A stretch of 64,000 nt of DNA, taken from assembly GCF_004337505.1 (NCBI RefSeq), contig NZ_SJZI01000011.1, forward strand, positions 8,300 through 72,299. Reading direction: 5' to 3'. Source of the stretch: Flaviaestuariibacter flavus. Lineage in GTDB: Bacteria; Bacteroidota; Bacteroidia; Chitinophagales; Chitinophagaceae. Shown in pieces: positions 4,316 to 61,956 of this stretch. The notes under the pieces were generated by a model. It was not told the origin of the DNA. It worked only from the letters and a program-made list of their open reading frames with translations, and searched no databases. Both the position numbers and the translations under genes were made by a program. Position 1 is the stretch's first letter. Each line of letters opens with the position of its first letter.

Positions 4316-4351
4316 GAATGGGGTAACGGGAGAATGGGATAATGGGGTAAT
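4316..4351. repeat. Octamer word array (family A), GtrA side
   Basis: Tandem degenerate octamers on the plus strand: GAATGGGG, TAACGGGA, GAATGGGA, TAATGGGG, TAAT. Read on the GtrA sense strand this is ATTACCCC-type words ending about 16 bp before a -7-like TAAATTCG. Confidence 0.8.
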
Positions 4352-4477
4352 CTTATCGACCGACATATTTTGGCGGTTACATCAGAAACCGAATGCCGAC
4401 GCGCCTCGTTGTACTGATTGAGCTCACACATCCAGCTATCGTCCGGCTCATCGATCCATCGAAATACTGATGCTCCG

Positions 4478-4505
4478 ATTACCCCATCACCCCATTACCC
4501 CATTC
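4478..4505. repeat. Octamer word array (family A), argS side
   Basis: ATTACCCC, ATCACCCC, ATTACCCC, ATTC on the argS sense strand; inverted relative to the array at 4316-4351, with a ~126-bp non-repetitive core between. Ends 6 bp upstream of the argS -7 box. The same word occupies the same position upstream of the gene at 37540-37950. Confidence 0.8.
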
Positions 4506-4511
4506 AACTAC

Positions 4512-4519
4512 TATCTTTG
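4512..4519 (+). promoter_or_regulatory. -7 promoter box of argS
   Basis: TATCTTTG followed by CGACC matches the Bacteroidota primary-sigma -7 consensus TAnnTTTG, 21 bp before the argS ATG. The expected -33 position falls inside the octamer array. Confidence 0.6.
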
Positions 4520-4540
4520 CGACCTAATTTTTCGCAGCAA

Positions 4541-6418
4541 ATGAGCCTTGTAGCCCGTGTTAAAGAAGCCAGCGCCGCCGCAATCAACAGCCTTTACGGC
4601 ACCGCGGTGACGCCGGAGGAGATCACCATTAACCAGACGAAGCCCGAGTTCGAGGGCGATTATACCGTTGTTCTTTTTGCGCTGGTGAAGAGCCTGCGAA
4701 AAAGCCCCGAAGCGCTGGGCCAGGAGCTCGGCGCCCGCATCGTGGCCGATAACCCGGGCCTGTTCACGGCCTTCAATGTGATCAAAGGCTTCCTGAATCT
4801 CACGCTCGCCGATGCGGTGCTGCTTGAATTCCTGCGGAAACCCGTTGCTGCCGAAACCCGTAGCCGGCAGAACGTCATTGTGGAGTACTCCTCTCCCAAC
4901 ACCAACAAGCCGCTGCACCTCGGGCACCTGCGCAACAACTTTCTTGGCTGGAGCGTGGCCGAGATCCTGAAGGCAGCCGGCAACGAAGTAAGAAAAGCCT
5001 GTATCGTCAACGACCGCGGCATCCATATCTGCAAAAGCATGATCGCCTGGCAGATGTTTGCCAACGGCGCCACGCCCCGGAGTGCGGGCCAGAAAGGCGA
5101 CCATTTTGTGGGTGACTATTACGTGCGCTTCGAGAACGAACTCAAGGCCCAGACGGAGCCTGTCATGGAGCGCCTGAAGAACGGCAAGTTCGACACCCTT
5201 ACCGAAGCGCAGCGCGTGAAAGCCGAAGCGATCTATAAGAACTGGGCCAACGGCGACCGCAAAGGCGAAGCCGCGCAGAAAGCGCTCGATGGCCTCCGCG
5301 AGATCGCACGTGCCTCTACGCCCATCATGAAAGAGGCGCAGCAGATGCTCGTAGACTGGGAAGCGGGCAAGCCGGAGGTGATGAGCCTCTGGAAGCAAAT
5401 GAATAGCTGGGTGTATGAAGGATTCGACGCCACCTACAAACGCATCGGCACCGACTTCGATAAGATTTATTATGAAAGCGATACCTACCTGCTGGGCCGC
5501 GACCTCGTAAAGGAGGGACTTGAAAAAGGCGTCTTCTATCGCAAGGAAGATGGCTCGGTATGGATCGACCTCACGGCCGAAGGCCTCGATGAAAAGCTGG
5601 TGCTCCGCAAGGACGGCACATCGGTTTATATCACGCAGGACATGGGCCTTGCGCAGCAGAAATACGAGTGGTTCCCCTACGACCAGAGCCTCTACGTCAT
5701 CGCCGACGAGCAGAACTACCACATGAAGGTGCTGCAGCTCATACTCAAAAAGCTGGGTGCGCCCTATGCTGACGGCATTCACCACCTTTCTTACGGCATG
5801 GTGGAATTGCCGACAGGCCGCATGAAAAGCCGCGAAGGCACCGTGGTGGACGCCGACGACCTCGTGAACGAAATGGTGAAGGTGGCCGAGGCCGAAACCC
5901 GGGCCCACAGCAAAGTGGAAGAATTCAGCGAAGGCGAGCTGAAAGAGCTTTATGAAACCATCGCGCTCGGCGCCCTCAAGTTCTTCCTGCTGCATGTAGA
6001 CCCGAAGAAGAAGATGCTCTTCAACCCGGAAGAGACGATCAAATTCCAGGGCTTCACGGGTCCCTTCATCCAGTATACCCACGCACGGATCCGATCCATC
6101 CTTCGCAAAGCCGGCGATATTTCGTTTGCGCCTTCCGGGGAGGAAAGTCTGCTGCCGAAGGAAAAAGAATTGCTTCTGCTCATCGAGCAGTATGGCAGCA
6201 CAGTGCAGCAGGCGGCAACCGAATACAACCCGTCGGTGATCGCCAACTATGCGTTTACGCTTGCCAAAACCTACAACGGGTTTTATTCGGAACACAGCGT
6301 ACTCAACGCCGAGAGCGAAGCCAAGAAGTGGCTGCGCCTCGAGCTTTGCCGCCGCACCAGCGAAGTGCTGAAAGCCGCGATGAGCCTGCTCGGAATCCGT
6401 GTTCCGGAACGCATGTAA
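4541..6418 (+). CDS. argS: Arginyl-tRNA synthetase
   Basis: 625 residues from ATG 4541, preceded by a good -7 box; the longer in-frame reading only adds repeat-derived residues. Class I synthetase charging tRNA-Arg with arginine in the cytosol. An N-terminal additional domain (residues 1-110) precedes the catalytic core with the HIGH-type motif HLGH (about 126-129) in NTNKPLHLGHLRNN. The KMSKS-type loop is degenerate, GRMKSREG (about 426-433), which is normal for many ArgRS. The C-terminal DALR anticodon-binding domain ends in LLGIRVPERM. An insertion around residues 190-290 is lysine/glutamate rich. A terminator hairpin follows at 6438. The cognate tRNA-Arg(ACG) gene lies 2.3 kb downstream on the other strand. 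Confidence 0.98.
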   Translation: MSLVARVKEASAAAINSLYGTAVTPEEITINQTKPEFEGDYTVVLFALVKSLRKSPEALGQELGARIVADNPGLFTAFNVIKGFLNLTLADAVLLEFLRKPVAAETRSRQNVIVEYSSPNTNKPLHLGHLRNNFLGWSVAEILKAAGNEVRKACIVNDRGIHICKSMIAWQMFANGATPRSAGQKGDHFVGDYYVRFENELKAQTEPVMERLKNGKFDTLTEAQRVKAEAIYKNWANGDRKGEAAQKALDGLREIARASTPIMKEAQQMLVDWEAGKPEVMSLWKQMNSWVYEGFDATYKRIGTDFDKIYYESDTYLLGRDLVKEGLEKGVFYRKEDGSVWIDLTAEGLDEKLVLRKDGTSVYITQDMGLAQQKYEWFPYDQSLYVIADEQNYHMKVLQLILKKLGAPYADGIHHLSYGMVELPTGRMKSREGTVVDADDLVNEMVKVAEAETRAHSKVEEFSEGELKELYETIALGALKFFLLHVDPKKKMLFNPEETIKFQGFTGPFIQYTHARIRSILRKAGDISFAPSGEESLLPKEKELLLLIEQYGSTVQQAATEYNPSVIANYAFTLAKTYNGFYSEHSVLNAESEAKKWLRLELCRRTSEVLKAAMSLLGIRVPERM

Positions 6419-6437
6419 ATACCGGTTCATCAAACTG

Positions 6438-6469
6438 AAATGCCCGCACATACAAGGCGGGCATTTTTA
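6438..6469 (+). terminator. Rho-independent terminator of argS
   Basis: Stem AAATGCCCGC / GCGGGCATTT with a 9-nt loop and a short T run, 20 bp after the argS stop. Confidence 0.8.
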
Positions 6470-6517
6470 TTGGTTGCATGGTACTACTTTTAAGCAACCA
6501 TAACGATAACGATTACG

Positions 6518-8437: not shown

Positions 8438-8474
8438 TTGAACCAGAACCGAGCGCCTTTACGATACGTCTTAG

Positions 8475-8693: not shown

Positions 8694-8698
8694 CTCTG

Positions 8699-8921: not shown

Positions 8922-8924
8922 CAG

Positions 8925-16027: not shown

Positions 16028-16035
16028 CGATGTCC

Positions 16036-16080
16036 GATCTCCGATTTGCTACAAATCGGAGATCCGAGATCCGAGATCGA
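16036..16080. repeat. Heptamer array and hairpin (family B copy 1)
   Basis: Perfect 13-bp inverted repeat GATCTCCGATTTG / CAAATCGGAGATC with a CTA loop, continuing into AGATCCG heptamers (16060-16080). Sits inside the etfB-etfA gap, with CCGAGAT words on the sense strand. Related arrays: 42828-42862 and 60418-60452. Confidence 0.85.
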
Positions 16081-20204: not shown

Positions 20205-23200
20205 TTAAAGCTTCACGAGTCGGAGCGTTGCCACCTTACCCTTTTCGGAGATGCCGTTCAGGAAGTAGCTTCCTGCAGCCTGACCGGCAAGTGTTACGCG
20301 GAGCTGGTTTTCACCAGGCACTACATTCTGATGGAGCACTTTGACAATGGTGCCTTTTGCATCAACCAACTGCCATTCCAGACGGGACGCGCGGGTGGCG
20401 CGCACCACAATTGTCGTGTAGTCGTGTGCAAGGCTCGGACGCAGACTTACCGCTGAAACGGTGGGGTCTAATGTCGAAACCGCGGTGCAGGTAGTTACGG
20501 TGAGCGCAGCTGCAGCAGAGGTCACATTGCCGCATGCACCGGTAACAACTACGCTGTAGGATCCGGCATCGGCAGCCGTAACGGCATTGATGGTATACGT
20601 GGCGCTGTTTGCACCCGTGATATTGCTTCCATCCTTGCGCCACTGATAGGTCAGCGTGCCCGAACCGGCCGCAGCAACGGTAAAGGATGCCGAGGTACCG
20701 TTGCAGGTGCTTACCGCAACCGGTTGTGTGGTAATGGAAGTGGTGGCATTCAAAGTCAACACGGCATTTGCAGAAGTAACCGATCCGCATGCCCCGGTAA
20801 CTACCACGGTGTAGGTTCCTGCATCGCCGGCAGAAGCGGCGGCAATGCTATAGGAAGCGCTGGTTGCACCCGTGATGTTATTGCCGTCTTTCTTCCACTG
20901 GTAGCTGAGGCCCGCACCTGTTGCCACAACGGTAAGAGTAGCGTTGGAGCCGGCGCAAACAGCCTGGGAAGCAACGGGCTGGGTCGTGATCGAAGTAGCA
21001 GCGTTAACCGTCAGTGCGGCGTTTGCCGAGGTAATGGTGCCGCAGGTGCCGGTTACCACCACGCTGTAGGTGGCAGCATCGGCAGCGCTAGCAGAAGCGA
21101 TGCTGTAGGTAGCGGCCGTAGCCCCGGAGATATCGGTGCCGTTCTTTTTCCACTGGTAGGAAAGGGCGGTACCGCTGGCGGAAACACTGAAGGTGGCACC
21201 TGCACCCGTACATACAGTTTGAGCTGCAGGCTGGGTGGAGATAGCCGTGGCTGCGTTCACCGTCAGCTGCGCGGCGGCCGAGGTGAGCGTACCGCAGGCA
21301 CCCGTTACAACAACCGTGTAAGCGCCTGCATCGGCACCCCCGGTTGAGGCGATCGTGTACGTAGCGGCTGTGGCCCCGGGGACGTTGGTACCGTCTTTCT
21401 TCCACTGGTAGCTCAGGCCGGTGCCCGTGGCTGCAACCGTGAAGGAAGCTGCTGTACCCGCGCAAACCGTTGCGGCTGCGGGTTGTGTAGTAATAGCCGT
21501 TACCGCGTTAAAGGAAAGCGTAGCACCGGAGGAAACAACAACCGTGCAAGGCGCGTTGCTGGTAATAACTACACTATAGGTACCCGCGTCGCCGGCCGTT
21601 GCGGCGGCGATTGAGTAAGTAGCTGCTGTGGCGCCGGGAATGTCCACGCCGTCTTTCCGCCATTGGTAGCCCGTAGCGTTAGTGGCCACGACTGTAAAGC
21701 TGGCAGTAGCACCCGAACAAATCGCTTGCGAAGCAGGTTGGGTTGTGATGGCAGCCGCGACTGCAACAGTAAGCGTAGCGGCAGCGGATGTCACAGCCGG
21801 TGCGCAGGCACCCGAAATGACAACGTCGTAGCTACCCGCGTCAGCCGAAGCTGTATTGCTGATGGTATACGAAGCGCTGGTGGCCCCGGTGATATTCGCA
21901 CCATTCTTACGCCATTGGTAAGTGAGCGCGGAACCGCTCGCAGCCACAACGAAGGTCGTCGGGCTGCCGGCGCAGGTCGTTTGCGAAACGGGTTGCGTAC
22001 CAATAACCGGAGCGGTATTCACGGTCAGCTGGGCATTCGCCGAAGTAACGGCAGGCGTACAGGTGCCGCTAACGACAACCGAGTATTGAGCCGCAGCAGC
22101 AGCGGAAACACCAGTAATGGAGTAGGTGTCCGTCGTAGCGCCGGTGATGTCGGCACCATCCTTACGCCATTGGTAGGTTACACCGGTGCCGGTGGCTGTT
22201 ACATGGAAAGTTGCATTTCCACCTGCACACACAGCGGTTGCCTGCGGCTGCGCCGTGATGGCCGGAGCCTGGTTCACCGTGATTGTTGCCGTTCCCGATG
22301 CGGTACAACCGGCGCTATTCGTGGCAGTCGCGGTATATACCGTTGTGGTAGCGGGAAGCGCGTAAACGGTTGTTACGTTGCCGGAGGAATAAGGAGTCGT
22401 AGCGGCAGCATCTGTATAAAGGCCTGTTGCCGGCGACCAGGAATATGTAGCCGCGCTCACCACCTTAAAGGTCATATCGGGGCGCAGGTTAACCGTTGTA
22501 ATGGTGTTCGAAGCCTGGACACCGCAGCTCGGTGCGTTGTCGGCGTAACTGCCCCAAACCGAGTTGAAGGAAGTGGTGGTGGCAGCCACGGTGCTGCTGG
22601 AGCTGAAGCAGCTGGCGCAGGTAGCGGTGGGATCGTTATCATGACAAATGTCGATGAGGATGTTCGACGCGCCGTCCCATGAGAAGGGAGTGATGAACGT
22701 AAACGTCTTCACACCAACAGCCGGTGCGGGCTCCGAAGCATTGGTATACACCGTGGTAAAGGAACCAACGGGTGTGCCGTAGGCCGACGTAAGAGCCGAC
22801 TGTGCCGTATGCGCAATCTTCATGGAGAAATTCTTCTGGGTGAAGGTGCCTGTTCCGGCCGCCGTTACTTTGAAGGAGAGCTCCGAAATGTCGCCGGCGG
22901 TAAGGCCCTGGGCATTCAGTTCGGATGCACGTACCAGGTACTGGGTTCGCGAACCTTCCCAGTTGCTGTTGAAAGGAGTGATACCGGCAGTGGATGTTGT
23001 GGTCGCATTGGTGCCGGTGGTAGCAGTCGCCGTCTGAAGTCCGCCGCTCAGGGTAAGCTGGACAGCAGGACCGGTCGGGCAAATGGTAGCGCTGGCCGGG
23101 GTCACCGTCACTGCGCTCGGCAGCGATGATACCGCAACAACAACCGTCGCCGATGCGGTACAGCCGGTGGCTGTAATCGTGCCGGTTACCGTATACGTGG

Positions 23201-26200
23201 TGGAGGCAGCCGGTGTAGCCGTTACGGAAGCACCGGTGGTGGCGCTCAGGCCGGTAGCGGGACTCCAGGCGTACGTAGAGGCGTTACCCGAAGCAGTAAG
23301 CGTGGTCGATCCGGCCGGGCAGATGGTCGCCTGGGAAGCTGCAACCGTCACGTTCGGGTTGGGGTTGATCGTAATCAGCACCTCGTTGGAGTAATCCGTC
23401 GCCTGGCCGGTGTTACAGGTAACTTTCAGGCGGTAGTAGGTAGTAGCGGTCAGGGTGCCGGTGCTGAGGGTGGCCGGGTTAGTCTGGCCGGCAACGGGCG
23501 TCCAGGTATTGCCATCTGCAGAAGACTCCCACTGGTACGAGCTCACGGCACCTTCCGAATAGCCGGTGGCCGTAATGGTAGCCGAGCCGGAATTACAGAA
23601 AGTCGTAGTGGCGGCGGTTGCGTTGCCTCCGACGGCACCGGAGCAGGTTACCGCGTCGAATTCGTCGGCACCCATATCCGGGTTGGCAGCACGGGCATCA
23701 CCGTCGATATCGTTGTTCACGGCAGGAATGGAAGTACCCAGGTTGTCAAGCGCATAGGAGTTGGCCGGGTCGAGGTGCAGGGCATTGTTGGTAAAGAAAG
23801 GCTGGATGCTCACCGAGTTGGCTTCCTGGGCGGTGTTCGTACGCCAGAGGGCCAGCGTCGTGCGGTTGGCACCGATGTAACCGATATGCGCCGTGGCAGG
23901 ACCGGTAGCGATCGAAACCAGGTCATTGTAGTTAATCACGCTTCCGGTATAGTTGGCACGCGTAGTATAGTGTGCATACAGCGGCGCGGCAGCAACAGAA
24001 GTCGCATTTACATAAAAGATATTATTCACCACTTCGATGGCGTCGGCCGATGTGGAAGTAATGCCGTTACCGTTGCTGAAAGCAGCTGAACCTGCCGTAC
24101 CACCCGAGCCCGAAAGCTGGCCGCTCAGATATACCGTGTTGAAGTAATACTTGTCTCCGTAGCCACCGTTGTTGTTGATGCCGGAAGTGTTCCAGGAAGC
24201 GCTCGTGCCGGCACTGGTCAGTCCATACACCATATTATTGATGTACTGGTTGGCAGAAGCGTTTGCTGCTGTATTGAACGTCGAGGTAGAGGTTGTGATA
24301 CCGTAAACCTTGGTCGTGCTGGAACCCGAGTAGTTCATATCGCGAACGATGTTCTCGCTCACAACCGAGTTGGTAACATCCTGCAGGTTGATACCCTGCA
24401 TGTTGGTTCCGGAAGCGCCCTTGATGTTCTCTACAATGTTGTTGCGGACGATCGCGTTCGTTTGACGACGAATGTCGATACCGCCGATAAACAGCTCGTT
24501 TCCGGCGCCGGTCACACCTACCTGGTTGTCAATAACCGCGTTTCCGTCGTCAAGTGTCGTAACAGATGTGCCGAGCAGGAAAATACCGTATTGGGTTTTC
24601 GAGATCACGTTATTCTGGATCGTGTTCCCGCTGTTGGCGGCCAAGGCGCTGGTGCTGGTCGAGATGGAGCCGGTACCACCCATAAATACACCCATCAGGG
24701 TTGTGGTGGATGCGTTGCCGGTGAGCACCAGGTTCTTCACCGTATTCTGCGTGGCAGCATCGGTAGCCGTAGCACTGGCGATCCAGATCAGTGCCGACGA
24801 TGTGCCGGTGTTGGTATTGACCAGCGTCAGGTTACGGCTGGCAGAGCCGTTGTTGGAGCCATCGATAATGACGCGGTCTGCACCGTTGATCTTAATAAGC
24901 GCCGAGCTCGAGCTGCCGGAAATGGTGGCATTGTTACCCGCGGCTGGCTTGATGGTAAGCGAATTGGCTCCCGCAAACGTATTTTGATTGATAACAATCG
25001 GGAAGGCTTCGCCCGGGTAGGTCGCATCGATGAGCGAGAACACCACGGGGCCGGAGAAGCAGGATGCGCTGTTATACGCAGCAATTGCAGCGGTAAGCGT
25101 TGCATAGTCGCCGCCTACACCGACGGTTTTTGTTCCGCCCAGCACCAGCGAAGTACGGATCGCCGGGCTCATCGCGTTGTTGCTGGCGTTCACATCGCCG
25201 GCAATTACAGCATTCGCCGTAATGGTGTAGGTACCCTGAGCGGTGAGGCTGGCCGTTGTAGGCATCGTCACCGCCATGGAGGCACCCGCTGCCAGTGTTC
25301 CGGTGTTCAGAACCCGGCTGCCGCTGAACGGAGTCGGTCCGGCAATGTTGACGTTGACGGTTACGTTATCCGTGGCAAAGTTGATCGGGTTGGATCCGAA
25401 GTTTTTCAGCGTTACCGTAATTGTTTCGGTGGCCGAATAGCAGCCGGTAGCGGCCGGGGTAGTAACCCCCGTGATACCAACGTCGGCACCCGGGATGGTG
25501 AAGTCGCCGGCGTCCGCGCCGATATCGGTCGGGGTCAACGTCGAGCGGGTCTGTCCGTCAAAGTCGTCGGTTACCGCGGCGATGTTTACACCCGCGGCTT
25601 CGGCCGGTGTGCCCATTTGTACATGCAGGTCAACCGTAGTGCTGGTGCCTTCGGGTGCTACAAACTTGGGATTGGAGGAAACGCTGTTGACATCCAGGCC
25701 GGTTGCGGCCGTCCAGGTACCGAGATCGACGTAATCCGTTGCGCCGGGAGCGCCGTTGTAGCCAATGAAGCCGCCGGTACCGCTGACAAACAGGATATTG
25801 TAGTTGCTGGTAAGCGTCGTGGTGGCATTGATGCCGATCGCGTAGTGCTTGCCGGTGCCGGCAGCATTGGAGCGAACGTTTGCAAAAATGTTGTTCCGCA
25901 CGTCGTCGGTGCCGGTAGCGGTGCGGCGGAAGGCGACCGAGTTTGCACTCACTGCTGCGCCGGCGCCACCGATATAGATGCTGTTGTGATAGATGTTTAC
26001 GTTACCGGTGCCAGGCTTGTCGATACCGACATAGCCTGCATTGGTAAGTGCCGCACCCGCTTTGTCGATACCAAGTCGGACCATGTTGTTCTGGAAGGTA
26101 CCAATGCCCGAAGCAATATAAATGCCTTCGATCATGGCCGTGGTGCTGTTGGAAGCTGTGCTGAGGCTATGGATAAAGTTCCTGCTCACCAGGTTGGTGC

Positions 26201-28892
26201 CGCTGGCGGGGCCACCATAATACATACCACGTACGGTCACCGCCGCGGTGGCAGCGCTGTTGCTCAGGTCATAGATCGTGTTTTGCGACACGGTAGCCGG
26301 AGCGGTGGAGGCACCGTAATAGATACCCATGATCGAAACCGCGGTTCCGGTGCCCGCGTTGGGGCCGGTGCTCGACAGCGCGTAGATCACGTTGCCCGAA
26401 ACCGTATTGGTTCCCGAGGTGATGTTGATCCCCTGAACCTGGGCACCCGTACCACCGGCTGTATAGGCGATATTATAAATATTGTTGTTCGAGATCACCG
26501 ACGAAGTGCCGCTCTCCGAGCTGATGCCCCGGGTGGCATGCGATGTGGTGGAAGTGTTACCGGCAGCGTTGTTGATACTGAGTGCAGTGGTGCTGCTGCC
26601 GATCGAGTTACCCGTAACCGTATTGGTACCGGAAGTAACACGGATTCCATAAAAGCTTTCGTAGATAGCGGACGAGGCCGGGTTCGTGATATTGAAGCTG
26701 CCGATGACGTTATTATTAATCGTAACGACGTTGCTGCTTACCGAATAGATACCGTAAATCGCTCCACCGGAGTTGCTGCTGGTTGTTACTGTGATGGAAC
26801 CGGTACCGGTGCCGCTGCCGATCGTGTTGGCCGTCGTGGTGCCGACATTGACGGAACCGCTGCCGATATAGATGCCGGAGAACACACCGCCGGCAGTGGT
26901 AGCCGAGCTGGTGGATGCGAGGCTGAAATTGGCGACGGTATTTCCCTGGATCGAGGATACAGGCGTGGTTCCGGCCGAAATACTGATACCGATCAGTTTG
27001 TTGCCGAAGGCGCCGGCGAGGGTCCAGGGAGTACCGCCTGCAGTATTATTACCACCGCCGATGACGTTGTTGTTGATCACATAGCCACCGCCCGTATTGG
27101 AGATGGTGATGGCCGCATGTGTGTTACCGGAGGTGGAAGTGCGGGTGGCTGTCTGGTAGAAGCTGTTGCCCGAGATCGTCCAGCCGGTTCCGTTCGAGCT
27201 GACGAGAATACCGTTGGAGCTGGAACCTGCGGCGAAGAAGTTGATGATCGAGTTGTTGCTCACTACGTTGTTGGCGTTGGGAGCCGCGGCAGCAGAGCTG
27301 GAAGAATAAATTGCGTTGGTCGGCGTTGTCGCCCCGTCGCGGATAAAGCAGCTCGTGATGGTGTTGTTGCTGTTGCCGAGCGTACCGGTAGTACCCTGGA
27401 AGGCGATCACACCGCTGGTGGTAGAAGTCGTAACTCCCTGGATCACCAGGAAGCGGAAAATGTTACCGGTGGCATCATTGATCATCTGGATACCATAGCC
27501 GCCGGTTGCGGTGTTGCTGATAACGAGGTCGGGTGCACCGCCTGTCGCGTTTACGCGGCCGTCGAAAATAATGTTGGTTCCGTTATTCAGGTTCAGTGTA
27601 CCCGTGGCATTGCTGCTGGTGATCTGCAGGCCGGACACGGTCGGATACACGGTAACGGTGAAATTGCCGACCACGGAGTTCGACGAAACGATCGGGTACG
27701 TTTCCGGGGCGGCCGGGTAGCCGGCGATCAGCTGCAGGGTAATGTTTCCGGCAAGGCCGTTGGCGTTGATGGCAGCGAAGGCCGTAGTCAGGTTGGTATA
27801 GTCACCACCGGTGCCCACTGTCTTGATGCCCGACAGCGTACCGGCAGGTGTTGCCTGCGAACCCGAAAGTGCGTTGTTAAAGGTGCCTTCCGAGAAGCTT
27901 ACAACTTTCCAGAAGTAGTTGGTATTTGCCGCAAGGCCAGTGGCAGCGTAGGTGGTCGTGTTGGCTGCGAGCGAGGCAATATTGGTATAGTTAATGCCAT
28001 CCGACGAACGTTGAATGACATAACCGAGCTCACCGGCGGCATCCGTCCAGTTGAGGGTCATCGACGAAACCGTAACGGCGGTAAAGTTCAGCGCGGTCGG
28101 GGCGGCAGGCACGGGGGGAGTGAATACATAGGTTTTGCGGCTTCCGTCCGAAGCGCTGTTCAGATCGGGGATCGGGCTGGTCGGGTAGGGAGCCGTTGTG
28201 CCCGTAGGACGGGTCGGTGTAATCAGCGTTACCGCTGTAGTCGAGAAGGCGTTGGTTGATGTGTTAGTGATCGACATGATTGTGTTGGCTGCCGATCCGG
28301 ACGAAAAACCAATGCTGAAAACGCCGGTATTGGCGCCGGACGAGTTGACGTTCATGTTCCCATATACATACTCGATTTTGCCGGTGCTCTCATAAAGGCG
28401 GGCCTGGAAGGTACCGTCCGGGTTCTGGTAGCTGCCCGTGTAGTCAAGTCCCATATTCAGGAACTCGACAACAAGTACCCGGTTCGGGGCGGTGCCGACC
28501 ACCTTGTAATGCACCTTTCCGGTAGAACTCGTTTCCTCGTCACCGCCAAAAGGAGCAATCAGCGCCATGCTTGCCGAGCCGATCGTGTATTGAGATGTAG
28601 CAATCGCCGTTGAACCCAGGCGGATAATACCGTTGGCCGTGGCAGAAAACTGGGAGTAAGGCACACCCATGAAGTAGAAATCAAACCCGATGTTGTTCAC
28701 GGTTGCCGTCGGCTGGTCGGACGAAGCGGCTGCGATCAGGTTGGTGCCGGTACTCATATCAATGGCGTTGCCATTGAGGTCGAGCGCCAGCGATCCGTTC
28801 GTCGTTGAGGAAACCGAGTAATTGGCCGTGCTTTGTGCCAATGTGGTACCGGCAATAAACAGCAGGGCAAAAAGCGAGTAAAGCTTTCTCAT
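20205..28892 (-). CDS. Giant secreted T9SS surface protein with beta-helix and Ig-like repeats
   Basis: 2895 residues. Signal peptide MRKLYSLFALLFIAGTTLAQ. An N-terminal beta domain (about 20-260) is followed by a fibronectin-III domain (about 265-350, LNWTDAAGELGYVIQRSSDG) and a long right-handed beta-helix region rich in NNxIxN/GNxI rungs (about 355-1130). A CARDB-like segment (VGITGVTTPAATGCYSATETITVTLKN) and a second beta-helix stretch (about 1280-1740) follow, then Cys-containing PKD/Ig-like domains. Seven ~84-residue Ig-like repeats (YQWRKDG..ITGAT..YSI..ADAGTYSVVVTG) lie at about 2210-2800, and a C-terminal sorting domain ends in LRLVKL. Predicted to cross the outer membrane by T9SS and attach to or leave the cell surface. 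Adhesion or polysaccharide binding is inferred; no enzymatic motif is seen. Confidence 0.9.
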   Translation of the reverse strand: MRKLYSLFALLFIAGTTLAQSTANYSVSSTTNGSLALDLNGNAIDMSTGTNLIAAASSDQPTATVNNIGFDFYFMGVPYSQFSATANGIIRLGSTAIATSQYTIGSASMALIAPFGGDEETSSTGKVHYKVVGTAPNRVLVVEFLNMGLDYTGSYQNPDGTFQARLYESTGKIEYVYGNMNVNSSGANTGVFSIGFSSGSAANTIMSITNTSTNAFSTTAVTLITPTRPTGTTAPYPTSPIPDLNSASDGSRKTYVFTPPVPAAPTALNFTAVTVSSMTLNWTDAAGELGYVIQRSSDGINYTNIASLAANTTTYAATGLAANTNYFWKVVSFSEGTFNNALSGSQATPAGTLSGIKTVGTGGDYTNLTTAFAAINANGLAGNITLQLIAGYPAAPETYPIVSSNSVVGNFTVTVYPTVSGLQITSSNATGTLNLNNGTNIIFDGRVNATGGAPDLVISNTATGGYGIQMINDATGNIFRFLVIQGVTTSTTSGVIAFQGTTGTLGNSNNTITSCFIRDGATTPTNAIYSSSSAAAAPNANNVVSNNSIINFFAAGSSSNGILVSSNGTGWTISGNSFYQTATRTSTSGNTHAAITISNTGGGYVINNNVIGGGNNTAGGTPWTLAGAFGNKLIGISISAGTTPVSSIQGNTVANFSLASTSSATTAGGVFSGIYIGSGSVNVGTTTANTIGSGTGTGSITVTTSSNSGGAIYGIYSVSSNVVTINNNVIGSFNITNPASSAIYESFYGIRVTSGTNTVTGNSIGSSTTALSINNAAGNTSTTSHATRGISSESGTSSVISNNNIYNIAYTAGGTGAQVQGINITSGTNTVSGNVIYALSSTGPNAGTGTAVSIMGIYYGASTAPATVSQNTIYDLSNSAATAAVTVRGMYYGGPASGTNLVSRNFIHSLSTASNSTTAMIEGIYIASGIGTFQNNMVRLGIDKAGAALTNAGYVGIDKPGTGNVNIYHNSIYIGGAGAAVSANSVAFRRTATGTDDVRNNIFANVRSNAAGTGKHYAIGINATTTLTSNYNILFVSGTGGFIGYNGAPGATDYVDLGTWTAATGLDVNSVSSNPKFVAPEGTSTTVDLHVQMGTPAEAAGVNIAAVTDDFDGQTRSTLTPTDIGADAGDFTIPGADVGITGVTTPAATGCYSATETITVTLKNFGSNPINFATDNVTVNVNIAGPTPFSGSRVLNTGTLAAGASMAVTMPTTASLTAQGTYTITANAVIAGDVNASNNAMSPAIRTSLVLGGTKTVGVGGDYATLTAAIAAYNSASCFSGPVVFSLIDATYPGEAFPIVINQNTFAGANSLTIKPAAGNNATISGSSSSALIKINGADRVIIDGSNNGSASRNLTLVNTNTGTSSALIWIASATATDAATQNTVKNLVLTGNASTTTLMGVFMGGTGSISTSTSALAANSGNTIQNNVISKTQYGIFLLGTSVTTLDDGNAVIDNQVGVTGAGNELFIGGIDIRRQTNAIVRNNIVENIKGASGTNMQGINLQDVTNSVVSENIVRDMNYSGSSTTKVYGITTSTSTFNTAANASANQYINNMVYGLTSAGTSASWNTSGINNNGGYGDKYYFNTVYLSGQLSGSGGTAGSAAFSNGNGITSTSADAIEVVNNIFYVNATSVAAAPLYAHYTTRANYTGSVINYNDLVSIATGPATAHIGYIGANRTTLALWRTNTAQEANSVSIQPFFTNNALHLDPANSYALDNLGTSIPAVNNDIDGDARAANPDMGADEFDAVTCSGAVGGNATAATTTFCNSGSATITATGYSEGAVSSYQWESSADGNTWTPVAGQTNPATLSTGTLTATTYYRLKVTCNTGQATDYSNEVLITINPNPNVTVAASQATICPAGSTTLTASGNASTYAWSPATGLSATTGASVTATPAASTTYTVTGTITATGCTASATVVVAVSSLPSAVTVTPASATICPTGPAVQLTLSGGLQTATATTGTNATTTSTAGITPFNSNWEGSRTQYLVRASELNAQGLTAGDISELSFKVTAAGTGTFTQKNFSMKIAHTAQSALTSAYGTPVGSFTTVYTNASEPAPAVGVKTFTFITPFSWDGASNILIDICHDNDPTATCASCFSSSSTVAATTTSFNSVWGSYADNAPSCGVQASNTITTVNLRPDMTFKVVSAATYSWSPATGLYTDAAATTPYSSGNVTTVYALPATTTVYTATATNSAGCTASGTATITVNQAPAITAQPQATAVCAGGNATFHVTATGTGVTYQWRKDGADITGATTDTYSITGVSAAAAAQYSVVVSGTCTPAVTSANAQLTVNTAPVIGTQPVSQTTCAGSPTTFVVAASGSALTYQWRKNGANITGATSASYTISNTASADAGSYDVVISGACAPAVTSAAATLTVAVAAAITTQPASQAICSGATASFTVVATNATGYQWRKDGVDIPGATAATYSIAAATAGDAGTYSVVITSNAPCTVVVSSGATLSFNAVTAITTQPAAATVCAGTAASFTVAATGTGLSYQWKKDGTNVPGATAATYTIASTGGADAGAYTVVVTGACGTLTSAAAQLTVNAATAISTQPAAQTVCTGAGATFSVSASGTALSYQWKKNGTDISGATAATYSIASASAADAATYSVVVTGTCGTITSANAALTVNAATSITTQPVASQAVCAGSNATLTVVATGAGLSYQWKKDGNNITGATSASYSIAAASAGDAGTYTVVVTGACGSVTSANAVLTLNATTSITTQPVAVSTCNGTSASFTVAAAGSGTLTYQWRKDGSNITGANSATYTINAVTAADAGSYSVVVTGACGNVTSAAAALTVTTCTAVSTLDPTVSAVSLRPSLAHDYTTIVVRATRASRLEWQLVDAKGTIVKVLHQNVVPGENQLRVTLAGQAAGSYFLNGISEKGKVATLRLVKL
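20488..22268 (-). repeat. Seven tandem ~250-bp Ig-like coding repeats
   Basis: In-gene tandem repeats of ~84 codons with shared core YQW(R/K)K(D/N)G. Diverged rather than identical: unit spacing is conserved while third positions vary. Boundaries approximate. Confidence 0.8.
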
Positions 28893-37539: not shown

Positions 37540-37950
37540 TTAGTCCTGGGCCGACGCATCTTTTGCCGCCGGTATTTTTTCGGGTGCCAGCAGCACCGTC
37601 AGCAGCATCAGGAGGCTCAGCACCGGGAGCGCCCAGAGGGCCCATTGCTTTTCGGGGCATTCGCCCCCTTCGCAGGCGCCGATGCGGAGCAGGTTTTTGA
37701 AGGCCCAGGCCACGTTGAAGGCCATAAAAAAGAGGCTAAGGCGCCGCGCCCACACCCGCGGCACAAAAATCAGCACCAGGAAGATGACGGCGAAAATGAG
37801 GTGCAGGTAACCGGGCTTACCGAAGTTGGTGCCCGTGGTGTCCATCCCCGTTATCTCAAGGCCTTTCGAAACGATCCGCACCCAGGGCAGGAAACAGCAC
37901 CAGATCAGGAGAACAGCACAAAGAGCGCCAAGCGGCTTCAGGAATCGCAT
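37540..37950 (-). CDS. Four-helix membrane protein, function unknown
   Basis: 136 residues from MRFLKPLG at 37950; the longer reading frame upstream translates an octamer array and is rejected. Four hydrophobic segments (LGALCAVLLIWCCFLPWV, YLHLIFAVIFLVLIFVP, LSLFFMAFNVAWAF, WALPVLSLLMLLTVLLAP) with a short loop containing ACEGGECPEKQ between helices 3 and 4. Probably an inner-membrane protein. Family not recognised. A TATCTTCG at the -7 position and an ATTACCCC array directly upstream mirror the argS promoter. Confidence 0.75.
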   Translation of the reverse strand: MRFLKPLGALCAVLLIWCCFLPWVRIVSKGLEITGMDTTGTNFGKPGYLHLIFAVIFLVLIFVPRVWARRLSLFFMAFNVAWAFKNLLRIGACEGGECPEKQWALWALPVLSLLMLLTVLLAPEKIPAAKDASAQD

Positions 37951-37960
37951 GGCGCGAAGA

Positions 37961-38009
37961 TAATGTGCTAATGGGGTAATGGGATAATGCGGTAATGGGA
38001 TAAGCGGTA
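37961..38009. repeat. Octamer word array (family A copy 2)
   Basis: Six degenerate octamers on plus: TAATGTGC, TAATGGGG, TAATGGGA, TAATGCGG, TAATGGGA, TAAGCGG(T). ATTACCCC words on the sense strand of the gene at 37540-37950. Confidence 0.85.
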
Positions 38010-38013
38010 ATCC

Positions 38014-41608: not shown

Positions 41609-42946
41609 CTACCGCTGCCGCAGCTCGTCGCTGAACAGTGAGCTCACCCGCGACGCCCCGATCAGCTCGTCGGCCTGGGCACCGAAAGGACGGTAGTAAA
41701 CGAGCACGATATAGCTGTTCTCGGTCGACCAGTTATTGCCCTCGGTGGCCTCGAAGTCCGGGTAGCCGCCTTTTCCACTCGGAAGGGTCATGTACTGGTA
41801 GTTATAATAGCCCTGCTTCAGATAAAGGGTGGCTTCATAGACGCCCTTGTCGGAATTGAACGTCATCAGGCCATCTCCATCCTGCGCATAATTGGTCAGC
41901 TCGCCGAATACATACACGTCGCGCCCCTCGATGGCCTGCCCCCCGGGCGGCTGGAAGCGGAAATGGACGGCGCCGTACTCGGTTTGCCAGAACGGGTTGA
42001 GGCCTTCCATCGACTCGATGGAGTAAGCGCCGTTAAGATCGCGATAGTAAACCCGCATCTGGCCGTTGCGGGGCGCATCCGGCCGCATGTAGATTTGGGT
42101 GGTATCGGCGCGGGTGTTGATCGACTCCACGCGGTCGCTCATAAGACGCAGGCTGCGGATATCGGCCCATCGCCATTCCATGCCGGCGGGAATGCCGGTG
42201 AGCGTTTCATCGCTGTACTCGTAATAATTGCCCCGGTAAATGGTGGGCCGGTTAAACTGCAGGGAGGTTGCCCAGTTGTTATTCTGCAGCACCACCACTT
42301 TGAGGTCCTGCGGGCCCATGAGGCGCACGCGCCGCTCGTCGGGCGTAACCCCGATGAACAGCTTCTGGTGGGTGCGGAAGTAGCGCGCATTATAAGGCTG
42401 CTGCACCTGCACCGCCACCACGGCCTTGTTGTCGGTAACCACGAATCGCTTTGAAAAGGCAAGCTGCGAGGTATCGCCGTTGATGAACACCTTCAGCAGG
42501 TAGTTGCCCGAGCGGGAAGGCGCGCAGTTGCGGTCGGGAACCGAGGCCTGGTAATGCGTGTAACGCGTCGAGGTCATCGACGACTGCCGGTAGTTGGTGA
42601 TCCGCACGTTGCGGAAACCCTGGGTGTATTCGAATGGATTGAGAATGCTCGGCGACCAGTCGGCGTTGCAGAGCTGGAAGGCGTAATAATAATTCTTTAC
42701 GTCGGCATCGAGGTCGTCGAAGTGAAGTTCCAGGCCCTCTGCCGAGTTGAGTGCATACATCGGGAAAGAGGTCTGGTCGCCGGGGCGGTAGAGCTTGACG
42801 CTGTGGATATCACCCACATAGCCGGAAGGATCTCTGATCTCGGATCTCCGATCTCGGATCTCAGGGTGAAGACCTCCGGTTTTCCCACTAGCGAAAACCG
42901 GTACGAGGGAAAGGGAACTTATCAGGAAAAGGATAATACGTTTCAT
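41609..42946 (-). CDS. Type IX secretion system plug-family protein (DUF5103)
   Basis: 445 residues from MKRIILFLISSLSLVPVFA at 42946; upstream codons are a shadow frame. A beta-rich N-terminal region (DIHSVKLYRPGDQTSFPMYALNSAEGLELHFDDLDADVKNYYYAFQLCNADWSPS) typical of DUF5103, NRNCAPSRSGNYLLKVF, and a C-terminal Ig-like part (VYVFGELTNYAQDGDGLMTFNSDKGVYEATLYLKQGYYNYQY). The plug protein of flavobacteria closes the lateral side of the SprA translocon; that role is inferred by family. Residues 29-40 (EIRDRRSEIRDP) are encoded by an inserted heptamer array and lie just after the signal peptide. Divergent from the permease gene at 43044. Confidence 0.88.
   Translation of the reverse strand: MKRIILFLISSLSLVPVFASGKTGGLHPEIRDRRSEIRDPSGYVGDIHSVKLYRPGDQTSFPMYALNSAEGLELHFDDLDADVKNYYYAFQLCNADWSPSILNPFEYTQGFRNVRITNYRQSSMTSTRYTHYQASVPDRNCAPSRSGNYLLKVFINGDTSQLAFSKRFVVTDNKAVVAVQVQQPYNARYFRTHQKLFIGVTPDERRVRLMGPQDLKVVVLQNNNWATSLQFNRPTIYRGNYYEYSDETLTGIPAGMEWRWADIRSLRLMSDRVESINTRADTTQIYMRPDAPRNGQMRVYYRDLNGAYSIESMEGLNPFWQTEYGAVHFRFQPPGGQAIEGRDVYVFGELTNYAQDGDGLMTFNSDKGVYEATLYLKQGYYNYQYMTLPSGKGGYPDFEATEGNNWSTENSYIVLVYYRPFGAQADELIGASRVSSLFSDELRQR
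42828..42862. repeat. Heptamer array inside a coding sequence (family B copy 2)
   Basis: Five contiguous heptamers on plus: GGATCTC, TGATCTC, GGATCTC, CGATCTC, GGATCTC. Falls within the T9SS plug gene, encoding residues 29-40. Confidence 0.9.
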
Positions 42947-48314: not shown

Positions 48315-48322
48315 CAAAGGTA
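48315..48322 (-). promoter_or_regulatory. -7 promoter box of truB
   Basis: TACCTTTG followed by CGCCCG and the ATG on the minus strand; 6 bp separate it from the start, implying a very short or absent leader. Confidence 0.55.
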
Positions 48323-48338
48323 CGGTGGACGAGAAAAA

Positions 48339-48437
48339 GAGAACGAGAGAACGTGAGAACAAGACAAAGAGAGCTGGTCAAATTTGAGAACGCATCTCGT
48401 TCTTTCACCGCTCGTCCTCTTGTTCTCTCGTTCTCAA
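48339..48437. repeat. Octamer word arrays in inverted orientation (family E)
   Basis: Left arm 48339-48370: GAGAACGA, GAGAACGT, GAGAACAA, GACAAAGA. Right arm ~48396-48437 has the reverse-complement words (CTTGTTCTCTCGTTCTC). The right arm covers the DUF58 stop codon; the left arm lies 16 bp upstream of the truB -7 box. Confidence 0.8.
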
Positions 48438-58674: not shown

Positions 58675-58696
58675 GAGAAAGGAAAAGAAGGTTCTA

Positions 58697-58825
58697 AACC
58701 GCGAAGAAAAAAGTTGAATAAGCGTTACGCTAAGGAATACAATTGAAAAGGTCCCGCCTGCGGCGGGACCTTTAACGTAACAACTTAGCATATCGCTTCT
58801 TCTTATTCTCTTAGCGGTGAAAGAC
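58697..58825. repeat. Palindromic intergenic element, family D copy 2
   Basis: Arms AAACCGCGAAGAAAAAAGTTG..GCGTTACGCTAAGG and CTTAGCATATCGC..TTCTTATTCTCTTAGCGGTGAAAG flank a terminator hairpin. Matches copy 1 at 2184-2322 in the arms but not the core. The right arm runs into the last codons of miaA. Confidence 0.75.
58747..58773. terminator. Terminator in the core of element D2
   Basis: Perfect 12-bp stem AAAGGTCCCGCC / GGCGGGACCTTT between convergent genes. Confidence 0.8.
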
Positions 58826-59720: not shown

Positions 59721-59740
59721 CGCCGGTAAAGGTCGCAAAT

Positions 59741-59767
59741 AAAAGACCGCTGCGGTGCAGCGGTCTT
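59741..59767 (-). terminator. Terminator of the pRiA4b-like gene
   Basis: 11-bp stem AAGACCGCTGC / GCAGCGGTCTT with a T-rich tail on the minus strand. Confidence 0.8.
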
Positions 59768-59808
59768 CGATATTCCTTATCCGATATTCGTTATTCGATA
59801 TTTAAAAA
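59768..59808. repeat. Heptamer word array (family H)
   Basis: CGATATT, CCTTATC, CGATATT, CGTTATT, CGATATT, TAAAAAT in direct tandem. It covers the stop codon of the gene starting at 60371 (stop at 59802-59804). Confidence 0.75.
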
Positions 59809-60371
59809 TCCTCACCGCCACCTTCGTCATGACCCGACTCTTCGGGGCTGTGGTCGTCGCCACCGCCTTCGCCTTCGGTGCCGAAGCCTTCGGCGTCCTT
59901 GCTGAGGTCATACTTTTCTTCCACATCGGCAAAGCGTTCGCCGAGCAGGCTCTTGGCGCCGTACTGGCTCGGGGCGATGCCTTCGGAACGTACCGTGGTG
60001 GGGTAGGTCACTTTCGGGTTTTCTTCTTTCGACACACCGATCAGGGATACAAGGAAGGTCCAGTTCTTTGCCAGGTCGTACACGTATACGAATTTCTGGT
60101 TCGGGTCCTTGATCTCCGATCCGATCGTCACGTCCTTCATCAGCAGGGGCGCCATGCGGTAGGGCCGGTCGTAATGCTCGAGCGTGATCTCGCGGCCGCG
60201 CTGCCAGTTGTCGTTGCTGCGGAAAAACGTGGCGGCGTGCTTGTTGTCAAACTCGAATGCCTTCAGGATCGCGTCGTGCAGCTGGAAAAAGGTGTGTGTA
60301 TGGCGGATGGCGATATCGCGGTAAACACTATCGTCATCCTCGTACTGTACTCGAAACTTAAGAATCGCCAT
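59802..60371 (-). CDS. pRiA4b ORF-3-like (IS1096 passenger TnpR-like) protein
   Basis: 189 residues. MAILKFRVQYEDDDSVYRDIAIRHTHTFFQLHDAILKAFEFDNKHAATFFRSNDNW is the characteristic start of the pRiA4b ORF-3 fold, a family first annotated from plasmids and the IS1096 passenger gene but widespread in chromosomes. The second half (FVYVYDLAKNWTFLVSLIGV, PSQYG) also matches. A strongly acidic, Gly-rich tail (GTEGEGGGDDHSPEESGHDEGGG) ends the protein. No transposase or terminal inverted repeats accompany it, so it looks resident. Function unknown. A TATTTTTG -7 box lies 26 bp upstream of its start. Confidence 0.82.
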   Translation of the reverse strand: MAILKFRVQYEDDDSVYRDIAIRHTHTFFQLHDAILKAFEFDNKHAATFFRSNDNWQRGREITLEHYDRPYRMAPLLMKDVTIGSEIKDPNQKFVYVYDLAKNWTFLVSLIGVSKEENPKVTYPTTVRSEGIAPSQYGAKSLLGERFADVEEKYDLSKDAEGFGTEGEGGGDDHSPEESGHDEGGGEDF

Positions 60372-60396
60372 GCAGGGTTGCCAAATGGGTGAACGT

Positions 60397-60404
60397 CAAA
60401 AATA
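60397..60404 (-). promoter_or_regulatory. -7 promoter box of the pRiA4b-like gene
   Basis: TATTTTTG on the minus strand (TAnnTTTG). Heptamer array B3 begins 13 bp further upstream. Confidence 0.5.
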
Positions 60405-60417
60405 AGGAGAAACACAG

Positions 60418-60452
60418 GAATCTCGGATCTCGGATCTCGGACCTCAGATCTG
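60418..60452. repeat. Heptamer array (family B copy 3)
   Basis: GAATCTC, GGATCTC, GGATCTC, GGACCTC, AGATCTG on plus; CCGAGAT-type words on the sense strand of the downstream gene. Confidence 0.85.
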
Positions 60453-60469
60453 CGGAAAAGCCGGATTAT

Positions 60470-61891
60470 TTACACGGGGCGCTTGATTCCGAGCTCAGCC
60501 GCTTTCACCAGCATAAACTGGAAAGCCGCCTCGTATTCGTTGGGAATATGCCCGTCCAGGATCGCGTTGCGGATGGCGTCCTTGATCTCTCCTACGGCGC
60601 GCGAGGGCGGCAGGGCAAAGGTTTCCATGATGAGCTCGCCGGTGATGGGCGGCTGCCAGTTGCGCATCCGGTCTTTGCCTTCCACCTCGATGCAGCGCTG
60701 CTTCACCAGCTCGAAGTTGTCGAGAAAGCGCTGCACCTTGGCTTTGTTCTTCGACGTTATATCGCTTTCGCAAAGGATCATCAGGTCATCGAAGTCGGCG
60801 CCGGCATCGAAAAGAAGGCGGCGGATGGCCGAATCGGTGATGTCTTCCTTTGAAAGCGATATAGGGCGCAGGTGCAGCTCCACCAGCTTGCGCACGTATT
60901 TCTGCGGTTCGCCCAGCGGCAGCTTGAACTGGTTGAAGATCTTGGGTACCATGCGCCCGCCCACCACCTCGTGGCCGTGAAAGGTCCAGCCGTGGCCTTC
61001 CTCGAAGCGCTTCGTGGCCGGTTTGGCGATGTCGTGCAGGATGGCCGCCCAGCGCAGCCAGATATTGCCGGTTCGCACGGCCACATTATCCAGCACCTGC
61101 AGGGTGTGGTAGAAATTGTCTTTGTGCCCGAGTCCATCCACGAATTCTGCACCGGCGAGGTCGACCATCTGCGGGAAAATGAGCTCCAGCAGCTTCGAAT
61201 CGTAAAGCAGCTTAAAGCCGACACTGGGCTTAGGGCTGGCGATGATCTTGTTGAGCTCATCGGTGATCCGCTCCTGGCTGATGATCCGGATGCGTTCGCG
61301 CTGCTCGCGGATGGCCCGGAAGGTGGGCGGGTGAATGCGAAAACCGAGCTGCGATGCAAAACGAATGGCGCGCATCATCCGCAGGGGGTCGTCGCTGAAG
61401 GTGATGGCGGGCTCCCCGGGCGTACGGATCAGGCCTTCCTTCAGGTCGGCCATCCCGTTGAAGGGGTCCACGAGTGTGCCGAAGTCGTCGCGGTTGAGCG
61501 AAATGGCGAGCGCGTTGATGGTGAAGTCGCGGCGGTTCTGGTCGTCTTCCAGCGTACCGGGTGCTACCTGCGGGTTGCGCGAGCCGCGGCTGTAGCTTTC
61601 CTTGCGGGCACCTACAAATTCGAGGTCGAAGCCCTCGGGCATACGGAACTGCGCCGTGCCGAAGTTTTTGAAGAAATGCACCCGCGGACGTGGCCGGAAC
61701 TGCTCCGCGGCCGCATCTGCAAGCGCGATCCCGTCGCCGATGCATACGAAGTCGGCATCCTTGGTGGGACGGCCGAGCAGCTTGTCGCGCACAAAGCCAC
61801 CGACCAGGTAAGCCGGAAGGCTGTTGGCTTGCGCCGCCGCGGCCACTTTCTTCAGGATATCGAGCTCGTATGGAGAAACCGGGATGTCCAT
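60470..61891 (-). CDS. cca: CCA tRNA nucleotidyltransferase with HD domain
   Basis: 473 residues from [15 protein letters not shown] at 61891 (a TTG three codons earlier is unlikely). Adds or repairs the 3'-CCA of tRNA, needed here because the tRNA-Arg gene does not encode CCA. Class II pol-beta head: [22 protein letters not shown] (GG motif and DxD), [32 protein letters not shown]. Then [14 protein letters not shown] and an HD phosphohydrolase-like domain with [12 protein letters not shown]-terminal ~60 residues are typical. A TATCTTTG box lies 6 bp upstream of the ATG. Confidence 0.96.
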
Positions 61892-61897
61892 GGGGCG

Positions 61898-61905
61898 CAA
61901 AGATA
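61898..61905 (-). promoter_or_regulatory. -7 promoter box of cca
   Basis: TATCTTTG followed by CGCCCC and the ATG on the minus strand; implies a nearly leaderless mRNA. Confidence 0.55.
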
Positions 61906-61916
61906 AGGCTCCCGGG

Positions 61917-61956
61917 AAGGTTCTAAGGTTCTGTGGTTCCGAGGTTTTAAGGTTGG
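61917..61956. repeat. Octamer word array (family F)
   Basis: AAGGTTCT, AAGGTTCT, GTGGTTCC, GAGGTTTT, AAGGTTGG in tandem; sense-strand words AGAACCTT, ending 11 bp upstream of the cca -7 box. Confidence 0.85.

Follow-up and report, generated by a model that had tools for sequence, protein, structure and literature searches.

Strand-polarised arrays of 7- and 8-bp words at gene borders in Flaviaestuariibacter flavus and related Bacteroidota

Many intergenic spacers of Flaviaestuariibacter flavus carry arrays of degenerate 7- or 8-bp words. They were noticed in a 64,000-nucleotide stretch of contig NZ_SJZI01000011.1 (positions 8,300 to 72,299; hereafter the window), where a first-pass annotation saw them directly upstream of the TAnnTTTG-like -7 boxes of several unrelated genes. 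It proposed either a new upstream promoter element or regulator-binding array, or a repeat-forming process that targets promoters. The analysis reported here indicates that the promoter reading describes half of the pattern: the arrays are a border phenomenon and not a promoter one. They are enriched in spacers, polarised by strand and paired in inverted orientation. They abut the -7 box or the stop codon, are partially locked in phase to these bases, and persist at orthologous spacers while their words change. With belief and doubt evenly balanced, we favor the explanation that they are inverted-repeat arrays with strand polarity, which copying spreads and exchanges and selection trims at gene edges.

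Abundance of word arrays in intergenic spacers

The genome of F. flavus (labelled G000; 3.96 Mb in 52 contigs, the window being on contig 11) was sampled as the window plus 60 stretches of 20 kb, 1.264 Mb in total. Samples of two related genomes, G016 (0.6 Mb) and G011 (0.2 Mb), were used for comparison. Based on ArgS, the nearest named relatives of F. flavus are Flaviaesturariibacter aridisoli (84%, best segment) and the Chitinophagaceae metagenome-assembled genome PMG_218 (82%). Arrays were detected with Tandem Repeats Finder (TRF), whose threshold trims shorter arrays, and the null was the mean of 5 dinucleotide shuffles. Gene calls, and with them all distances to starts and stops, come from a custom hexamer caller and not from a published program; arrays containing stop codons can themselves fix the end of an open reading frame (ORF).

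The search of tandem 7-8-mers against shuffled sequence, as suggested in the first-pass annotation, gave 195 intergenic arrays in G000 versus 1.0 in the shuffles. The corresponding values were 78 versus 1.0 in G016 and 22 versus 0.2 in G011, and the density was 12.5-16.6 arrays per 100 kb in the three genomes. Each of the other period classes tested in G000 yielded just 2 to 11 arrays. Arrays mostly have 4-5 units (about four in 98 of 202 G000 arrays), and units of 8 bp are only slightly outnumbered by those of 7 bp. At least one array was present in 119 of 500 tandem, 34 of 136 convergent and 18 of 170 divergent spacers of G000.

Strand polarity relative to the nearest gene border

Arrays were assigned to 13 word families, written as regular expressions after viewing a 464-kb training part of G000 and the first G011 and G016 lists; the remaining 800 kb of G000 played no part in the family definition and served as a hold-out. 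The polarity rule is simple. An array at the left border of a spacer shows the forward word and an array at the right border its complement, regardless of gene direction. In the hold-out, the rule held for 45 of 48 single arrays close to a border, and 20 of 21 adjacent pairs were inverted (+,-). The earlier claim that arrays of one family keep the same orientation relative to the gene is borne out at gene starts, with the precision that orientation follows the nearest border and not transcription. Agreement in the training part was 36 of 41 for singles and 8 of 8 for pairs, the window arrays at 16055 and 60420 being among the exceptions. Family-based counts elsewhere, which are not independent of the family definition, were 43 of 46 singles and 8 of 9 pairs in G016, and 12 of 13 singles and 2 of 2 pairs in G011. 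Arrays belonging to no family were dropped from this test (20 of 83 in the training part, 23 of 127 in the hold-out, 12 of 82 in G016 and 5 of 25 in G011), as were single arrays that were ambiguous or far from a border (6, 14, 6 and 3, respectively).

A family-free test relied on base composition. On the outward strand, arrays with G>C, C>G and ties numbered 97/22/6 in G000, 53/8/1 in G016 and 12/2/1 in G011, and the G-excess had the same sign at starts and stops. In G000 the skew was 0.44 at starts and 0.33 at stops, as compared to 0.15 and 0.02 for array-free spacer edges. Read toward the gene, the strand had a mean C of 0.26-0.28 and a mean G of 0.09-0.13 in the three sampled genomes; for these means and for the G-tract count given below, the G000 set comprised 202 arrays, 8 of 210 having been excluded because of a 15-bp unit. 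Ten further Bacteroidota samples, nine of them with usable arrays and seven of the ten sampled where a word pattern had matched, gave 31/4/3, a choice of sites that makes the draw a biased one. Stop-side arrays of one of the other genomes, G012, were without outward G-excess (3 versus 4). Stop codons contained in the word were tried as the cause of polarity and not retained: their outward excess was 75 versus 27 in G000 (ties 23) and weak in G016 (31 versus 23, ties 8).

Such a composition may suggest that the arrays are directional transcription insulators, which we consider rather unlikely. RNA entering a gene would read C-rich, G-poor spaced words and would be stopped, perhaps by Rho; outward RNA would not. 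The words would then be interchangeable because just composition and spacing count. The C-rich inward strand, the like polarity at starts and stops, the lower array content of divergent spacers and the exchange of words at conserved sites (see below) are in line with this proposal. Several observations oppose it. The arrays, with their 4-5 units, are short for what we take to be a Rho site, and several words have no YC dimers. The opposite skew is found in 22 of 125 G000 arrays, and the AATnnTC word carries it by its very sequence. The two ETF-domain genes that flank one of the arrays are probably co-transcribed. Finally, the stop side of tandem spacers, where antisense RNA is less expected, is nearly as rich in arrays as the start side. 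Transcript data from Xanthomonas can be quoted on both sides. In excerpts of Rehm et al. 2015 (PMC4692102), quadruplex-capable repeats are reported to coincide with the starts or ends of transcripts more frequently than other repeats of that kind, in agreement with an insulator; however, this holds whichever strand is transcribed, which argues against a directional effect.

Position and phase of arrays at starts and stops

The Bacteroidetes promoter has -33 and -7 elements, with the consensus TAnnTTTG. In G000, TAnnTTTG was found within the last 60 bp before 141 of 743 genes with room for it, versus 17 on the other strand, and the -7 boxes beside arrays fit the consensus. The arrays themselves are no part of that promoter and cover its -33 position. 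Among the 87 G000 arrays nearest to a start (at most 90 bp), 36 had a TAnnTTTG-like box between array and start and 51 had no recognised box. The array-to-box gap was -4 to 17 bp in 31 of the 36. Arrays nearest to a stop lay within 15 bp of it in 79 of 118 cases in G000, 35 of 45 in G016 and 8 of 12 in G011.

The first-pass annotation also placed the usual -33 position inside the arrays. With the three genomes pooled, an array extended across -30..-5 of the box in 30 of 188 box promoters, a count for which room upstream was required and promoters with slight array overlap were removed beforehand. TTG at -28..-17 occurred in 22% of array-free promoters (11% on the other strand) and in 13% of promoters with arrays (3% on the other strand). 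Since this signal is weak even where there is no array, the -33 element appears to be at most loosely needed.

We then consider phase, still with the three genomes pooled. In TAATG-family arrays beside a box, ATTA occurred in a single phase in 9 of 12 cases (7 of 10 without the two examples of the first-pass annotation), the TA of the array being the TA of TAnnTTTG. Over 37 junctions, 12 of them with any match, the TA of the box was found at the array phase with a frequency of 0.297, versus 0.034 at other phases. For the stop codon, the values were 0.147 versus 0.018 (119 junctions, 24 with any match). The lock thus concerns a minority of junctions, yet lies far above the other phases. Because stop codons show it too, it is better read as arrays that extend into the final functional bases and overlap with them than as the set spacing of an activator. 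The word ATTACCCC does begin 18 bp ahead of the box in two genes, as had been pointed out (4494 versus 4512 at argS; 37980 versus 37962, on the minus strand, at the gene 37540-37950), and this coincidence belongs to the wider phase lock (18 = 2 x 8 + 2).

Altogether, an upstream promoter element or regulator-binding array, as first proposed, seems improbable. Abutment to the -7 box, family orientation at starts, coverage of the -33 region and the preferred phase of the TAATG family stand in its favor. What fails is promoter specificity. More than half of the start-side arrays have no recognised box, and stop codons show similar presence, the same outward strand and the same phase lock. In tandem spacers the start and stop sides carry comparable numbers of arrays (40/39 in G000, 23/16 in G016 and 7/4 in G011), and divergent spacers, which have the highest promoter density, are the least likely to carry an array. 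Moreover, at least ten different words are in use, and words are exchanged at orthologous promoters. The other initial proposal, a repeat-forming process targeting promoters, fits better in its repeat-forming part; its target would be gene borders or free spacer.

Inverted pairing of arrays across spacers

Of the inverted hold-out pairs, 15 of 20 had the same family on both arms, versus an expected 0.17 if the arms were independent. The arrays of the GtrA-family gene and of argS are inverted partners across a single spacer. Among array spacers, the two arms matched in inverted orientation in 51 of 154 cases in G000, versus 0-2% with an arm taken from another spacer; the counts were 19 of 67 in G016 and 2 of 18 in G011. 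In several convergent spacers, an intrinsic-terminator-like hairpin lies between the arms (by eye, in part of the spacers).

This geometry raises the possibility that the two arrays are arms of a terminator or 3'-end hairpin, pairing in RNA and lengthening the terminator stem. The matching arms, and the long near-perfect stems seen by eye in several convergent spacers, often around such a hairpin, are compatible with it. Yet arrays also occur in divergent spacers, where neither arm would be transcribed from the -7 boxes, and many arrays are single. In addition, 5 of 20 pairs combine two families and are unable to form a stem, so that the arms are not simply those of a hairpin. We therefore hold this explanation to be very doubtful.

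Inverted ends and dispersal are also features of mobile elements of the repetitive extragenic palindrome (REP) or miniature inverted-repeat transposable element (MITE) type, with the arrays as ends moved by a putative transposase. The phylogenetic distribution is patchy, with the same words in distant families: tandem GATsTC words were found in 7 of 296 genomes across the phylum and tandem ATTRGT words in 16 of 296, F. flavus included in both counts. Conversely, no conserved core was seen between the arms by eye, the ends can be mixed, and the arrays are phase-locked to flanking functional bases. This origin, too, has little probability in our judgment.

Other inverted repeats were encountered near the arrays. 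A palindromic element of roughly 200 bp, whose arms resemble CGTCATTGCGAGCGGAGCGAAGCAAACTCC, recurs at dispersed sites of G000, often beside arrays (C42:74790-75049, C42:95562-95847, C42:193129-193335 and C8:89198-89447). Orthologous spacers of G011 and G016 contain inverted repeats of longer or unclear period (CCCATCCCCTAACCCCTTCCC..., CACCGCGAAG...) around terminator-like hairpins.

Turnover of words at orthologous spacers

G000 and G016 were compared at 137 orthologous spacers of at least 30 bp, 68 shorter ones being set aside. An array was present in both genomes in 15 spacers, in one only in 9 and 14, and in neither in 99 (Fisher p 9e-7). Inspection by eye of the 15 shared cases showed that the family was kept in 6, related in 1 and different in 8. 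The truB spacer carries GAGAACGA, an unrelated inverted repeat or AATnnTC words in three species, with the -7 box kept, and a single convergent spacer has three different inverted repeats around a terminator-like hairpin in three species. In G011, TAATGTGC-type words are found where G000 has the left array of the GtrA/argS spacer. At the spacer between the ETF-domain genes (16028-16080), GAT-type arrays are present in the G011 and G016 orthologs as well.

A copying model and its weaknesses

In the favored explanation, the arrays are dispersed intergenic repeats that would basically form the arms of imperfect inverted repeats bracketing a spacer. Going out of the gene border one reads a forward word (TAATGCGG, GATsTCn, GAATAwCG, GGTTyTnn, ATTGGTnn, GAGAACnn, TCGTsAA and others) and, going into the gene, its complement, C-rich on average. 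Putative copying, by template switching or gene conversion between dispersed copies, may spread arrays within and between spacers. A few bases in common, for example TA, might anchor the copying, and slippage would alter the unit number. Copies that break a coding region or a -7 box would be removed by selection, so that arrays end there; the -33 region would be expendable and become overwritten. Copying together with edge selection would account for the way arrays are dispersed, paired, set against functional bases, locked in phase and turned over. As for the G-rich outward strand, the most probable additional cause is a slight directional influence on transcription coming toward the gene.

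A number of observations weigh against this explanation. Copying alone leaves the G-rich direction unexplained, and the outward G-excess argues for more than neutral copying. Unsupervised single-linkage clustering of strands, tried and not retained, fused families, which lowered the polarity (146 of 201 arrays in G000, 70 of 78 in G016 and 12 of 13 in G011). For just 8 of the 51 matching G000 arms was the true partner a better fit than any other array spacer. Matching arms also occur in 34% of 74 convergent spacers without detected array; inverted bracketing is therefore not confined to word arrays. The mixed-family pairs, which amount to 4 of 8 in G016 besides those of the hold-out, would need nested or repeated events. 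Finally, no copying event was caught; unit gain, unit loss and word exchange are deduced from comparing genomes with argS DNA 76-80% alike.

A stronger version is conceivable, though unlikely. Gene borders of Bacteroidota would bear a directional boundary signal with fixed geometry and a free choice of letters: any of at least ten 7- or 8-bp words, repeated about four times, C-rich toward the gene, running up to the -7 box or stop codon, written by a putative dedicated copying activity and re-written in the course of evolution. If so, neither flank of a gene would be open to transcription arriving from outside, and the quadruplex heptamers of Xanthomonas and Nostoc (see below) would be one dialect. 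Whatever the cause, promoter prediction in array-rich genomes should allow for -33 regions that repeats may have overwritten.

Arrays of the window and of other genomes

The arrays and boxes of the window are listed in Table 1. For argS, the gene 37540-37950, truB, the pRiA4b-like gene and cca, the coordinates in the first-pass annotation proved right within a few bases. GtrA, given as probable, has its array from about 4310 next to a minus-strand box. Pfam backs the names ArgS, GtrA, TruB, pRiA4b ORF-3-like and polyA-polymerase-type (cca-like) protein; the product of 37540-37950 had no Pfam match at E 0.001. An Rfam scan of the window at gathering thresholds returned tRNA only. Two adjacent, very long minus-strand ORFs of 2895 and 2675 aa occupy 20205-28892 and 29253-37280.

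Table 1. Word arrays and -7 boxes located in the window (window coordinates)
Feature	Position	Strand	Basis
-7 box TAAATTCG of GtrA-family gene 3785-4297	4304..4311	-	sequence; Pfam PF04138
Left array of the GtrA/argS divergent spacer, TAATGGGG family, forward (outward) strand	4310..4351	+	TRF 4316-4351, read on to 4310
Right array of the GtrA/argS spacer, reverse-complement (ATTACCCC), before argS	4478..4504	-	TRF; phase 2 relative to box
-7 box TATCTTTG of argS	4512..4519	+	sequence; Pfam PF00750, PF05746, PF03485
GATsTCn-family palindromic array between two ETF-domain genes	16028..16080	.	TRF core 16055-16078; Pfam ETF domains
-7 box TATCTTCG of gene 37540-37950	37955..37962	-	sequence
TAATGnGn array, forward from left border, overlapping the TA of box TATCTTCG	37961..38011	+	TRF; phase analysis
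GATCTCG array within coding region, linker before T9SS_plug_1st domain	42828..42862	.	TRF; Pfam
-7 box TACCTTTG of truB	48315..48322	-	sequence; Pfam PF01509
GAGAACGA array at truB, forward from left border	48338..48373	+	TRF
Inverted partner of the truB array (CTCGTTCT), beside the stop of the next gene	48411..48435	-	TRF
GAATAwCG-family array, reverse-complement, at the stop of gene 59802-60371	59766..59802	-	TRF
-7 box TATTTTTG of pRiA4b ORF-3-like gene	60397..60404	-	sequence; Pfam PF07929
ATCTCGG array, forward; nearer the right (stop) border, hence an exception to the nearest-border rule	60420..60456	+	TRF
-7 box TATCTTTG of cca-like (polyA-polymerase-type) gene	61898..61905	-	sequence; Pfam PF01743
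GGTTyTnn array at cca-like gene, forward from left border	61917..61954	+	TRF

One of these arrays is located within a coding region, in the linker that precedes the T9SS plug domain, and the corresponding linker of G011 contains array-like sequence. Coding-region word arrays were also seen at C42:193943-193984 of G000, in the gene 193336-196776, and at position 170115-170147 of the C22 sample of G016, apparently in loops of the proteins. Judging from the residues, the former gene presumably encodes a long, GTPase-containing IcmF-like protein and the latter a TilS-like one.

Among other Bacteroidota samples, array density was 23 per 100 kb in G012, with partly other words, and 0-6 in G003, G015, G019 and G024. 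As controls for the searches of the 296 genomes, the patterns read backwards matched, among the rows listed, in 2 genomes for GATsTC and in 6 for ATTRGT; in G326, the backwards ATTRGT control exceeded the pattern (77 versus 43). Genomes between 36 and 69% GC contain words of the same families, the polarity being mostly the same by eye; L235:10425 is one of the exceptions. Two Bacteroidota of 43% GC (L239-L240 of G135 and L241-L242 of G291) have many 8-bp arrays of the GAATTAGT and ACCAATTA type, mostly with the same polarity.

Comparison with known intergenic repeats

Cyanobacterial short tandemly repeated repetitive (STRR) sequences comprise several degenerate heptamer families in intergenic regions; we know of no report of polarity, inverted pairing or octamers for them. 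REPs and bacterial interspersed mosaic elements (BIMEs) form intergenic inverted pairs and are fewer at divergent promoters. Their units are 20-40 bp palindromes with tag sequences, unlike the word arrays described here.

The closest likeness is with the heptamer repeats GGGNATC and GGGGA(C/T)T of Xanthomonas and Nostoc, which form quadruplexes in vitro and whose functional role, in the words of their authors, remains to be elucidated (excerpts of Rehm et al. 2015, PMC4692102). The excerpts describe 7-bp intergenic units, most often about four, which are scarcer between divergent genes. In Xanthomonas they form convergent inverted pairs, few of which are seen in Nostoc. The G-rich strand is the antisense one ahead of genes and the sense one after stops, and some arrays overlap the stop codon. 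In two Xanthomonas species the repeats lie mostly between the same genes, with varying length and sequence. The same features are found here: a 7-bp unit repeated about four times, a G-rich outward strand (97 of 125 G000 border arrays), inverted pairs and depletion between divergent genes. As compared with these excerpts (PMC4692102), the present arrays use many words, including 8-bp ones, whole words differ at orthologous spacers, and the phase lock was measured.

The published geometry (PMC4692102) would by itself suggest G-quadruplex elements here as well. However, four G-tracts of at least three on one strand were found in just 2 of 202 arrays of G000, 1 of 25 of G011 and 5 of 82 of G016. 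Almost no array being quadruplex-capable, geometry and quadruplex formation are separable; quadruplexes are refuted here as a general cause and are extremely improbable as the explanation.

TAACTGA direct repeats were described in Beggiatoaceae, some Cyanobacteria and Bacteroidetes and proposed to be the binding site of a post-transcriptional regulator (excerpts of MacGregor 2015, PMC4679880). They too are 7-bp tandem units at gene borders, mostly on one strand upstream of starts. A single Bacteroidetes set reported in these excerpts (PMC4679880) lies right after a stop and is reversed, as the border rule predicts. The difference is that a single word is involved there (PMC4679880) and many words here. 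The doublet TAACTGATAACTGA had 0 matches in the window, with 1 mismatch allowed, and 0 exact matches in 264 loci. Among the matches listed in our literature search, none described multi-word border arrays in Bacteroidota; as coverage of the subscription literature is thin, this is weak evidence of novelty.

Overall, the arrays resemble known heptamer repeats of other bacteria, but with many interchangeable words. Earlier accounts of heptamer arrays dealt with a single word each and drew the explanation from it, through quadruplex-forming G-tracts or a regulator binding site. Many quadruplex-free words, exchanged at conserved positions, indicate that it is the polarity and the position of the arrays, and not the word, that need explaining.

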